NCBI GenBank assembly: GCA_947450025.1
Contig: CANFTW010000007.1
Span: 62,001 to 126,000, forward strand
Length of the DNA stretch: 64,000 bases
Direction: 5' to 3'
Origin: Bacteroidota bacterium
GTDB lineage: Bacteria > Bacteroidota > Bacteroidia > B-17B0 > Aurantibacillaceae
Of the stretch, positions 32,466 to 35,737 are shown in pieces. The notes under the pieces are model-generated. The model was not told where the DNA came from, ran no database searches, and saw only the letters and a list, made by a program, of their open reading frames with translations. The position numbers and the translations under genes were made by a program. Each line of letters opens with the position of its first letter. The stretch's first letter is position 1.

Positions 32466-32471
32466 ACTCTA

Positions 32472-32479
32472 CAAAGGTA
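32472..32479 (-). promoter_or_regulatory. candidate pyrD -7 element, nearly abutting the start codon
   Basis: The minus strand reads TACCTTTG (TAnnTTTG) 6 bases before the pyrD ATG at 32465. The start codon matches the family N-terminus, so the transcript would be essentially leaderless if this element is used. Confidence 0.45.
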
Positions 32480-32572
32480 CGATTTATGCGGTTTTTAATG
32501 ATTTCAACTATAATATTGTTAATAAAAAAAAACTTTTTTTTGGTTTTTTTAACTGTAATAAAAAAAAACGTG

Positions 32573-32580
32573 TATTTTTG
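32573..32580 (+). promoter_or_regulatory. -7 element of the first small lipoprotein gene
   Basis: TATTTTTG matches TAnnTTTG, 35 bases upstream of the ATG at 32616. The surrounding 50 bases are almost identical in the second copy (33413-33420), so promoter and leader were duplicated together. Confidence 0.6.
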
Positions 32581-32615
32581 CAATCAAATTAATAAAACTT
32601 AAACAAAAAATTAAA

Positions 32616-32882
32616 ATGAAAAAAGTATTATCTATCGTTGCTGTAGCTGCATTATCAGCTGCATTTGTATCTTGTGGTCCTTCTAAAGAAGAAATGGAAG
32701 CAAAAGAAAAAGCTAAAGCTGATTCAACTGCTGCTGCTGCTCAAGCACAAACTGATTCTTTAGCTAAAGTTGCTGAAGCTGAAACTGCTGCTGCTGCTGA
32801 AGCTGCTGCAAAAGCTACTGCTGATTCTACAAGAATCGCTGATTCAACTGCTGCTGCAACTAAAGGTGCTAAAAAGAAATAA
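32616..32882 (+). CDS. small Ala/Lys/Asp-rich lipoprotein, copy 1
   Basis: The 88-residue product has a lipoprotein signal peptide (SIVAVAALSAAFVSCG, lipid Cys at residue 20). The mature part is low-complexity and helical, rich in Ala, Lys, Glu and Asp with repeated ADST and DSTAA segments, ending in a Lys-rich tail (KGAKKK). It resembles small, abundant outer-membrane lipoproteins, but I know of no named family. The signal and first 15 mature residues are nearly identical to copy 2 at 33456, while the rest differs. It has its own -7 element (32573) and terminator (32899). Confidence 0.85.
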   Translation: MKKVLSIVAVAALSAAFVSCGPSKEEMEAKEKAKADSTAAAAQAQTDSLAKVAEAETAAAAEAAAKATADSTRIADSTAAATKGAKKK

Positions 32883-32898
32883 TCTTTCTTTAAAGACT

Positions 32899-32929
32899 AA
32901 AAAAGCCCGAACTTGTTCGGGCTTTTTTT
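32899..32929 (+). terminator. intrinsic terminator of lipoprotein copy 1
   Basis: The stem GCCCGAAC pairs with GTTCGGGC, flanked by A- and T-runs, and starts 16 bases after the stop. The same hairpin occurs in copy 2 (33730-33760). Confidence 0.9.
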
Positions 32930-32974
32930 ATGGATTATATTTCGGAAAACTCATGAAATAGTGGCTTAGTATTT

Positions 32975-33178
32975 TTAAAGCCCCGTATGTTTCCTAAATA
33001 ATTTAATAGCTAAGGCCAATAATATGATGCCGAATACTTTTTTAACAATAGTTATACCGCCTACACCAAGTAATTTTTCAACTCGATATAAATTTTTTAG
33101 GATAATGTAAACAATAATGATATTGAGGATAATGGCTGTTATAATTGAAATGATATTATATTCAGCTCTTATAGACAA
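32975..33178 (-). pseudogene. truncated marC (C-terminal 66 codons), duplication remnant
   Basis: The minus-strand residues from SIRAEYNIISIITAIIL to the stop match the end of the intact MarC at 33806-34378 almost perfectly. The N-terminal two thirds are absent; upstream sequence switches at 33178-33181 to the PAP2 fragment. The TTG that could act as a start is an internal Leu codon in the intact gene, so a functional start is unlikely. Confidence 0.85.
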
Positions 33179-33180
33179 TA

Positions 33181-33395
33181 TATGACCCTATTTTGAATTT
33201 TATAAAATCGCGCGATGTTTCTGATTTTATATTTTTTGTTACCTATTTAACCGCTTTGGTTAGTTTAATTTATGCGTTAACATAACCCTTAAAGGTTTTA
33301 CAACTAATACAAATGTATTGTTTATAGTCTTATTAAGAGTGATTATTGTGTTTAGTCTTTCCAACTGCTATTATCAAATTAAGAGATGTTTTTTA
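33181..33395 (+). pseudogene. internal fragment of the PAP2-family gene, duplication remnant
   Basis: This plus-strand sequence parallels 35169-35395 of the intact PAP2 gene. Shared blocks include GATGTTTCTGATTTTATATT, AACCGCTTTGGTT, TTTAATTTATGCGTT and AAGAGTGATTA. Indels and substitutions break the frame, and neither gene end is present. It ends at a hybrid junction where PAP2 sequence (AAGAGATG plus a T-run) changes into the promoter of lipoprotein copy 2. Confidence 0.82.
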
Positions 33396-33412
33396 CTATA
33401 ATAAAAAACATG

Positions 33413-33420
33413 TATTTTTG
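33413..33420 (+). promoter_or_regulatory. -7 element of the second small lipoprotein gene
   Basis: TATTTTTG (TAnnTTTG) occurs 35 bases upstream of the ATG at 33456, the same position and context as in copy 1. Confidence 0.6.
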
Positions 33421-33455
33421 CAATCAAATTAATAAAACTTAAACAAAAAATTAAA

Positions 33456-33713
33456 ATGAAAAAAGTATTATCTATTGTTGCTGTAGCTGCATTATCAGTT
33501 GCATTTGTATCTTGTGGTCCTTCTAAAGAAGAATTGGAAGCAAAAGAAAAAGCTAAAGTTGATTCAATTGATATAGCAAAAATTGATTCTATAGCCATTG
33601 CTGATGCTCTTGCTGCTGACCAAGCTAAAGTTGATTCAACAGCTGCTGCTGTTGCTGAGCAAGCTAAACTTGATTCATTAGCTTTAGCTACTCCTGCTAA
33701 AAAAGGAAAATAA
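33456..33713 (+). CDS. small Ala/Lys/Asp-rich lipoprotein, copy 2
   Basis: The 85-residue paralogue of the product at 32616 has the same signal peptide and lipobox (AFVSCG) and the same first mature segment (PSKEELEAKEKAK). It then diverges: copy 2 has DSIDIAKIDSIAIADALAA where copy 1 has a poly-Ala and DST-rich stretch. Both end in a short basic tail. The frame is intact and the amino-acid bias is kept, so both copies appear functional. It is followed by the duplicated terminator at 33730. Confidence 0.85.
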   Translation: MKKVLSIVAVAALSVAFVSCGPSKEELEAKEKAKVDSIDIAKIDSIAIADALAADQAKVDSTAAAVAEQAKLDSLALATPAKKGK

Positions 33714-33729
33714 TCTTTCTTTAAAGACT

Positions 33730-33760
33730 AAAAAAGCCCGAACTTGTTCGGGCTTTTTTT
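33730..33760 (+). terminator. intrinsic terminator of lipoprotein copy 2
   Basis: The hairpin GCCCGAAC/GTTCGGGC with flanking A- and T-runs is identical to the terminator of copy 1. Confidence 0.9.
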
Positions 33761-33805
33761 ATGGATTAGATTTCGGAAAACTCATGAAATAGTGGCTTAG
33801 TTTTT

Positions 33806-34378
33806 TTAAAGCCCCGTATGTTTCCTAAATAATTTAATAGCTAAGGCCAATAATATGATGCCGAATACTTTTTTAACAATAGCTATACCGCCTACGCCAA
33901 GTAATTTTTCAACTCGATATAAATTTTTCAGGATAATATAAACTATAATGACATTGAGGATAATAGCTGTGATAATTGAAATGATATTATATTCAGCTCT
34001 TATAGACAACAAGGTGGTTAAAGTTCCTGTTCCTGCAATTAAAGGAAAAGCAAGCGGAATAACTGAAGCAGTAGCTGGCATGGTATCTTTTGTTATTTGA
34101 ACACCTAAAATCATTTCAAAGGCAACAATAAATAATAAGATAGAACCTGCAATCGCAAAATCACCAATTGATATTCCAACGATATCTAAAATAGTTTGAC
34201 CTAAAAATAAAAAAACAATCATAATCCCTAAGGATACAAAAGAAGCCTTAGAGGCATTGATTTCTCCGGTTTTTTGTTTTAAGCTAATAATGATAGGAAT
34301 AGAACCAATAACATCTATGACAGCAAAAAGTACCATAGTTACTTTTAGTATTTCAATAATATCAAATTGTAAATTCAT
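33806..34378 (-). CDS. marC: MarC-family integral membrane protein
   Basis: The protein has 190 residues and about six membrane helices. Family features are DVIGSIPIIISL in the first helix, SIGDFAIAGSILLFIVAFEM and MPATASVIPLAFPLIAGTGTL. Once thought to be an antibiotic-resistance protein, MarC has no established transport substrate. It is complete here, unlike the remnant at 32975-33178. A TAACTTTG element lies at 34396-34403. It is divergent from the COG3650-like lipoprotein gene. Confidence 0.9.
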   Translation of the reverse strand: MNLQFDIIEILKVTMVLFAVIDVIGSIPIIISLKQKTGEINASKASFVSLGIMIVFLFLGQTILDIVGISIGDFAIAGSILLFIVAFEMILGVQITKDTMPATASVIPLAFPLIAGTGTLTTLLSIRAEYNIISIITAIILNVIIVYIILKNLYRVEKLLGVGGIAIVKKVFGIILLALAIKLFRKHTGL

Positions 34379-34395
34379 ATTAGTTTTTTTTTGTG

Positions 34396-34403
34396 CAAAG
34401 TTA
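34396..34403 (-). promoter_or_regulatory. candidate marC -7 element
   Basis: The minus strand reads TAACTTTG (TAnnTTTG), 17 bases upstream of the marC start. No -33 was assigned. Confidence 0.45.
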
Positions 34404-34460
34404 AATGATTAAAAGGAATTTAAAGAATGGCAACTGATTATTATTTAGTAAGTTTATGAT

Positions 34461-34943
34461 ATGAAAAACTATATCATCTTCATTCTATCTTTCAACATTT
34501 TATTTTCTTGTACTCAGGTTAATTCAAACGGAGAAAAAACAATTACTCAAGGCCAGGATACGCTAGCTTCAGTTGAAATATCAACTTCTAAAATAGATGC
34601 ATTAAATACTTTATCTGAAATAGATGAGACAGAGACGAATTCATTTCTTTTTAAAGCAAGTGGCATTGAACCAGGGTGGCTGTTGGAAATTTCTGAATTT
34701 AAAATAAAGTTAGTGATGGATTACGGAAAAGATAGTGTGATTTTAGATAATAAAGGTGGCGTTATTAATGGCAAGGAGGATTATCATTATGAAATACAGG
34801 ATAAAGATATCAGTAAAAGTTTTTCTGTTAAAGCCATGAATAAGCCTTGTATTGATGGAGGTAGTGGTGATAAAAAAGATAGAGTAGTGGTGGTAAAATA
34901 TAAAGGTAAAACTTACCAAGGTTGTGGTAGTTTTGTGAAATAG
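34461..34943 (+). CDS. COG3650-like lipoprotein
   Basis: The 160-residue lipoprotein has a signal peptide ending LFSC (lipid Cys at about 17). The mature domain has FKASGIEPGWLLEISEFKIK, a DYGKDS strand, and paired cysteines in NKPCIDGGSGDKKDR and YQGCGSF. This pattern (EPGW/EPFW plus two Cys, the last in GCG) is that of the small beta-barrel COG3650 proteins, probably periplasm-facing, with unknown function. It is the only gene of the duplicated unit that left no trace in the upstream copy. Confidence 0.75.
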   Translation: MKNYIIFILSFNILFSCTQVNSNGEKTITQGQDTLASVEISTSKIDALNTLSEIDETETNSFLFKASGIEPGWLLEISEFKIKLVMDYGKDSVILDNKGGVINGKEDYHYEIQDKDISKSFSVKAMNKPCIDGGSGDKKDRVVVVKYKGKTYQGCGSFVK

Positions 34944-35027
34944 AAAAGCTTGAATATTGTTGATAACCCATTGATTTTTAAATCTTTTTAAGGATTTGTA
35001 GCCTAAAATATTTAGTAATATTGTATC

Positions 35028-35669
35028 ATGTTTTATAATTGGAAAATAGCTCTTGCTGACAAACACTTTAGAAATCGATTTTTTGTTTCTTTAGTAGTGG
35101 TGAGTATTATTTTAACTGGTTTTGCCTCACTATTAGCTTATATTGAAACTAGACAAGGCCATACATTTTATGATCCTATTTTGAATTTCATTAAGCCACG
35201 AGATGTTTCTGATTTTATATTTTTTGTAACTTACCTAACCGCTTTGGTTGGTTTAATTTATGCGTTTTCATCACCTTATAGATTTTTACATCTAGTACAA
35301 ATGTATGGTTCATTAACTTTGTTAAGAGTGATTACTTTATTTTTTGTTCCATTAGACCCTCCAACAGCTATCATTCCATTAAGAGATGTTTTTTTAACTC
35401 ATACATTTTACGCTGGTAATGAAAATTTAAAAGATTTGTTTTTTAGTGGTCATGCAGCCACCTTATTTTTGTTTTTCTTTTTTGCTAATAATAAGGTACT
35501 TAAAGCTTTGTTTTTAGTTTCCGCAATTGCTGTTTCTATGGGCGTGGTTGTTCAGCATGTGCATTATAGTTATGATGTGTTAGCTGCTCCTATTTTTGCT
35601 TACATCGCTTATAAAGTGATTACCAAATTCTCTAAACACTACTATAGCGAGGTTACTCATGAGCTTTAA
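35028..35669 (+). CDS. PAP2-like membrane phosphatase
   Basis: The protein has 213 residues with about six membrane helices. The catalytic signature is in the second half: DLFFSGHAATLFLFF (motif 2, His) and VVQHVHYSYDVLAAPIFAY (motif 3, His and Asp). This is the sphingomyelin-synthase/PAP2_3 type of lipid phosphatase or phosphotransferase. Lipid phosphate or lipid head-group exchange is the likely chemistry; the substrate is unknown. A fragment of the same gene is found at 33181-33395. The 12-bp duplication microhomology lies within codons 121-124. Confidence 0.85.
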   Translation: MFYNWKIALADKHFRNRFFVSLVVVSIILTGFASLLAYIETRQGHTFYDPILNFIKPRDVSDFIFFVTYLTALVGLIYAFSSPYRFLHLVQMYGSLTLLRVITLFFVPLDPPTAIIPLRDVFLTHTFYAGNENLKDLFFSGHAATLFLFFFFANNKVLKALFLVSAIAVSMGVVVQHVHYSYDVLAAPIFAYIAYKVITKFSKHYYSEVTHEL

Positions 35670-35737
35670 ACAAGCTTTTGTACAAAACATTTTATAGGAC
35701 CTAATTAATCGCAATTTTTTATTGGTATTTTTAAATA

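Follow-up and report, generated by a model that had tools for sequence, protein, structure and literature searches.

Two genes for small lipoproteins, lip1 and lip2, lie in tandem in the Bacteroidota genome G000, with fragments of two other genes between them and intact versions of those genes further downstream. What events produced this arrangement, and why were both lipoprotein genes retained? A first-pass annotation of the sequence had proposed a tandem duplication between two short homologies, a later deletion in one unit, and selection for the dosage or divergence of the lipoprotein. We followed up these proposals in the 64,000-nucleotide stretch of DNA that contains the locus (hereafter the window; G000:C7:62001-126000), in 19 other genomes of the genus (20 with G000), and in 87 genomes of the family. 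The named relatives are metagenome-assembled genomes of uncultured Bacteroidota.

Results

The locus is an imperfect head-to-tail pair, with an upstream unit of ~843 bp (32545-33387) and a downstream unit of ~2.0 kb (33388-35387). Self-alignment, a direct-repeat search, and global alignment showed the units to be colinear, with continuous matches running through promoter, lipoprotein gene, terminator, and 3' marC and then PAP2. When the locus was compared with itself by BLAST, the only direct repeats were one of 631 bp (88%) and one of 173 bp (83%). The offset between units is 840 over the promoter and the first third of lip, 831 through the lip tail, terminator, intergenic DNA, and 3' marC up to 33178, and 1988 from 33181 (PAP2 codons ~46 to 122), with small indels further on.

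The upstream unit carries lip1 (32616..32882, plus strand), which encodes an 88-aa small lipoprotein with a signal peptide, the lipobox FVSC, and an Ala/Asp-Ser-rich tail. Its hairpin terminator (32899..32928) is identical to that of lip2 (33730-33759). Next come marC', a 3' remnant made up of the last 67 codons of marC (32975..33178, minus strand), and PAP2', a pseudogene relic spanning about codons 46-122 with five stops as well as indels (33181..33394, plus strand). In the downstream unit, lip2 (33456..33713, plus strand) encodes an 85-aa duplicate that keeps the signal peptide and lipobox and has a strongly diverged tail, still in frame. It is followed by intact marC (33806..34378, minus strand; MarC-family membrane protein, PF01914, E 8e-31), by a single-copy gene for a 160-aa lipoprotein (34461..34943, plus strand), and by an intact gene for a PAP2-superfamily protein (35028..35669, plus strand; PF14360, E 5e-7). 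The 160-aa lipoprotein, called COG3650-like in the first-pass annotation, has an SCTQVNSNGEK lipobox region and an SGIEPGW motif, and a Pfam search gave no match.

The breakpoints can be read directly and are where they had been placed before. The 12-bp word GTTTTTTTAACT occurs just 5' of the lip1 core promoter (32543..32554, plus strand) and again within PAP2 (35388..35399, plus strand), and at 33388..33397 (plus strand) a hybrid joint carries PAP2 sequence into the lip promoter. This hybrid, AAGAGATGTTTTTTACTATAATAAAAAACATG when written with its flanks, now lacks one T and one A relative to both parents (T6-ACT rather than T7-AACT). Comparing 32466-32599 (promoter flank) with 33800-35719 (downstream block) gave no other common 12-bp word, and the chance of a random breakpoint pair there landing in a word of at least 12 bp is ~5e-5. 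In alignments of G003 and G008 read by eye, ~8 bp of the parental homology (TTTTTAAC) is common to both ends. Between pyrD and NlpC/P60 there was no transposase-like ORF, hence no insertion sequence at the unit ends. A putative Bacteroidota-type -7 box of lip1 (TAnnTTTG; TATTTTTG, 32573..32580, plus strand), flanked by a region conserved across the genus, has its lip2 counterpart at 33413-33420, at an equal distance from the start; both are pattern matches. Because the duplication breakpoint lies just 5' of this box, lip2 would have been born with a core promoter.

Of the 20 genus and 87 family genomes searched, G000 alone carries the hybrid joint. In every other genome, the DNA of the hybrid region matched PAP2 at one location and the lip promoter at another; a match in one piece occurred solely in G000. 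Six relatives (G003, G008, G006, G005, G004, and G012) have a divergent pyrD, a single lip, marC, and the small lipoprotein gene. PAP2 is next in five of these six, immediately in G003 and ~1 kb on in the other four; that of G012 was found on a different contig. A pyrD-lip pair with a single lip is also present in G010, G015, G014, G002, G009, G013, and G019, and PAP2 was found in 16 of the 19 other genomes sampled. BLAST of each locus against itself revealed no repeat in eight relatives. The single-copy arrangement is ancestral. With neither hybrid nor repeat in the relatives, the duplication arose in the G000 lineage, or it was lost without trace everywhere else. Colinear copies, a novel joint fusing unit end to unit start, a sole common 12-bp word at the ends, and an ancestral single copy thus bear out the proposed tandem duplication between short homologies.

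Other changes have occurred around this locus. Between the small lipoprotein gene and PAP2, G008 has a ~1-kb stretch (L036 5966-6820) that encodes a 284-aa putative lipoprotein. Similar stretches occur in G016, G006, G005, G004, and G015 and are missing from the window, G003, G018, and G013, a separate turnover at the same locus. In G003, the nearest relative, a 106-aa ORF (L034 4870-5190; LFVCSRNQWRSPTAE), low-molecular-weight phosphatase-type by reading, lies between marC and lip, the interval that is nearly identical between the window's two copies.

Within the upstream unit, the jump in offset from 831 to 1988 at 33178/33181 corresponds to a loss of ~1,157 bp (1988-831), in agreement with the single internal deletion described earlier. 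Its joint, between marC' and PAP2' (33175..33181), lies inside one unit, and ~3 bp (ACA) there is common to both parents. A longer common word, TAGACAA, is found 10 bp off, in PAP2; judging from its position, the original joint may have formed at TAGACAA and then undergone a second small loss.

Duplication and deletion could also have been one complex event, with the short upstream unit, its joints, and the deletion all arising at once through template switching during replication. The short homology at both joints (12 bp and about 3 bp) fits such an origin, as does the lack of an intact two-unit intermediate in the genus and family genomes searched. However, conversion would still be required afterwards to produce the young marC' block described below, and on present data the single event and the two-step order are indistinguishable. 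We consider the single event unlikely and prefer duplication followed by deletion.

Divergence between the copies was uneven and not clock-like. The promoter and 5' UTR hold 2/58 differences and the first 35 lip codons 4/105; beyond the lip tail, which differs strongly, there are 0/50 around the stop and terminator and 2/45 in the rest of the intergenic DNA. Over about 201-204 sites, marC' and marC differed at 8, 6 of them synonymous. By contrast, PAP2' and PAP2 differed at 44/219 sites (20%) vs. 2-4% in marC and intergenic DNA, a contrast across the deletion joint of ~five-fold (marC, all sites) to six-fold (intergenic). The young block spans only about 300 bp, and few sites enter the tests: the 61 intergenic nucleotides outside the terminator hold 2 differences (P = 8e-4 vs. 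PAP2'), synonymous divergence (pS) is 0.125 for marC vs. 0.41 for PAP2' (6/48 vs. about 20/48, P = 0.002), and pooling marC' with intergenic DNA gives P = 9e-7 against PAP2'. The intergenic DNA 3' of the terminator differs widely between relatives and is thus without visible constraint. With G003 as outgroup, at least 30 of the 44 PAP2 differences fall on the relic's own branch. Many of these affect positions invariant among the eight relatives, so they cannot be put down to a foreign downstream PAP2; some of the downstream PAP2's apparent distance could come from allelic exchange with another strain.

This low divergence from terminator to marC, relative to PAP2', indicates that the copies last had this block in common more recently than they did PAP2'. 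In the tree, marC and marC' pair with support of 100/99. The PAP2' tree is poorly resolved, with an open fork at 83/88, so the age of the duplication relative to the G003 and G004 splits is not fixed. The change in divergence is abrupt and unexplained by constraint, and we infer that gene conversion or unequal exchange homogenized the terminator-marC block. Exchange may have preceded the deletion, when 2 kb of homology was available, or followed it, with about 630 bp left. The right edge of the young block coincides with the deletion joint, which fits either timing, and promoter conservation together with divergence of the lip tail obscures the left edge. That the deletion came later than the duplication, as originally proposed, is therefore plausible rather than proven, since the resetting of marC' by conversion could have either preceded or followed it. 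We set aside the high 5' similarity of lip1 and lip2 as a sign of conversion; interspecies comparison shows the same degree of conservation in promoter, 5' UTR, and signal peptide.

The first-pass reading of duplication and then simple divergence falls short here. It would make marC' look young because the gene was functional until the deletion, with one duplication, one later deletion, and clock-like divergence throughout. Indeed, only 2 of the 8 marC' changes are nonsynonymous (neutrality, P = 0.003), as expected of a gene kept under selection through most of its history. Yet selection on the protein cannot account for the excess similarity that also extends to synonymous marC sites (6/48 vs. 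about 20/48) and to intergenic DNA free of constraint (2/61). We therefore regard this history as improbable, and the divergence contrast calls for a homogenizing step. An assembly or binning artifact fusing two strains is very improbable: every named relative in the genus is a metagenome assembly, but the copies are 3-20% apart and two intact genes flank a decayed pseudogene, strain mixing would not yield a hybrid joint, and the locus sits in the interior of a 205-kb contig in an assembly of 28 contigs. We also rejected an older partial PAP2 copy combined with a separate recent duplication of lip and 3' marC, which predicts PAP2' upstream of lip1 or none between the copies; neither was seen.

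The two lipoproteins have fared differently. The lip1 tail shows 77% identity to genus orthologues, which average 80% over the tail, vs. 42% for the lip2 tail, and residues 1-35 (signal peptide and lipobox) remain at 88%. By these identities, lip1 has kept the ancestral sequence. With G003 as outgroup, 46 nucleotide changes in the tail were lip2-derived vs. 7 lip1-derived (P = 4e-8), counts that depend on alignment and are uncertain in so low-complexity a region. The tail contains no stop, and every indel is a multiple of three. Its rate in lip2 exceeds that of dead PAP2' (46/144 vs. 30-37/219, P = 4e-5 to 1e-3), an excess that hints at positive selection or repeat slippage. Dosage selection predicts similar proteins; lip1 and lip2 are dissimilar, and dosage is not supported. 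Of the two forms of selection suggested earlier, the lip2 tail points instead to divergence, or to relaxed constraint. It is doubtful that positive selection is giving lip2 a new tail with the export signal, promoter, and flanks kept constant.

Both genes likely encode small export-signal lipoproteins with a helical tail, and for lip2, AlphaFold returned only a low-confidence helix (pLDDT 55). We rejected recombination with another lipoprotein as the source of the lip2 tail. Remaining matches in the genome were weak, none better than E 1e-5. In the best genus match to lip2 (G010, 75% over a local alignment), the resemblance is confined to the N-terminal region and to the ATPAK end. Elsewhere in G000, two more small lipoprotein-like genes, weakly similar to lip1 and lip2, lie in tandem (G000:C19:33626-34279), and neighboring pairs of this kind also occur in several relatives (e.g., G003:C68, G011:C3, and G015:C56).

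Discussion

Taken as a whole, a history of duplication, deletion, homogenization, and lip divergence is quite probable. It began with the single-copy order pyrD / lip-marC-(small lipoprotein)-PAP2, in which ~2.0 kb was duplicated head to tail at the short homology common to the lip promoter flank and PAP2. Joint and relatives attest to the product, and the route may have been unequal exchange or template slippage. The truncated PAP2' was dead at birth and then decayed into the present relic, and ~1.16 kb of the upstream unit was deleted, taking most of marC', the whole small lipoprotein gene, and the PAP2' start. At some point, conversion or unequal exchange would have homogenized the terminator-marC block. 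A start, signal peptide, lipobox, open frame, terminator, and putative promoter have been retained in both lip genes, with lip1 probably continuing the ancestral role and the lip2 tail evolving under relaxed or diversifying selection.

Tandem duplications have been documented in bacteria at junctions with very little homology or none (PMC9997567). The Ben+ amplifications of Acinetobacter baylyi have 0-5 bp at the joint and units of 12-290 kb (PMC9997567). Our locus shares their head-to-tail repeat and a novel joint fusing unit end to start at a short common word. By contrast, its joint is 12 bp, its unit is 2 kb, and it has become fixed in a natural genome, with an age sufficient for 20% divergence. 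As far as the account in PMC3857721 goes, internal deletions trim duplicated neighbors in selected amplifications of Salmonella (Kugelberg et al. 2006, 2010), much as the deletion here removed neighbors co-duplicated with a retained gene. Those amplifications, as related there, were under laboratory selection for copy number, whereas here the retained pair diverges, with no sign of dosage selection. Gene conversion also makes paralogues appear younger than their true age (PMC3857721). As in such cases, a low-divergence patch lies beside an old pseudogene relic of the same duplication, although the patch here covers about 300 bp only.

Tandem duplication at short homology with subsequent internal deletion is an established route, and this locus is a natural example combining known processes. 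Because it preserves both breakpoints, a neutral relic for dating, and two intact paralogues, the order of events can be argued from the sequence of a natural genome. If lip2 is positively selected for its new tail, the locus would capture, in nature, the birth of a new surface lipoprotein by duplication, with a clock, PAP2', preserved alongside. As it stands, it is an ordinary but unusually readable gene duplication, one that adds an example and leaves the picture of known processes unchanged.
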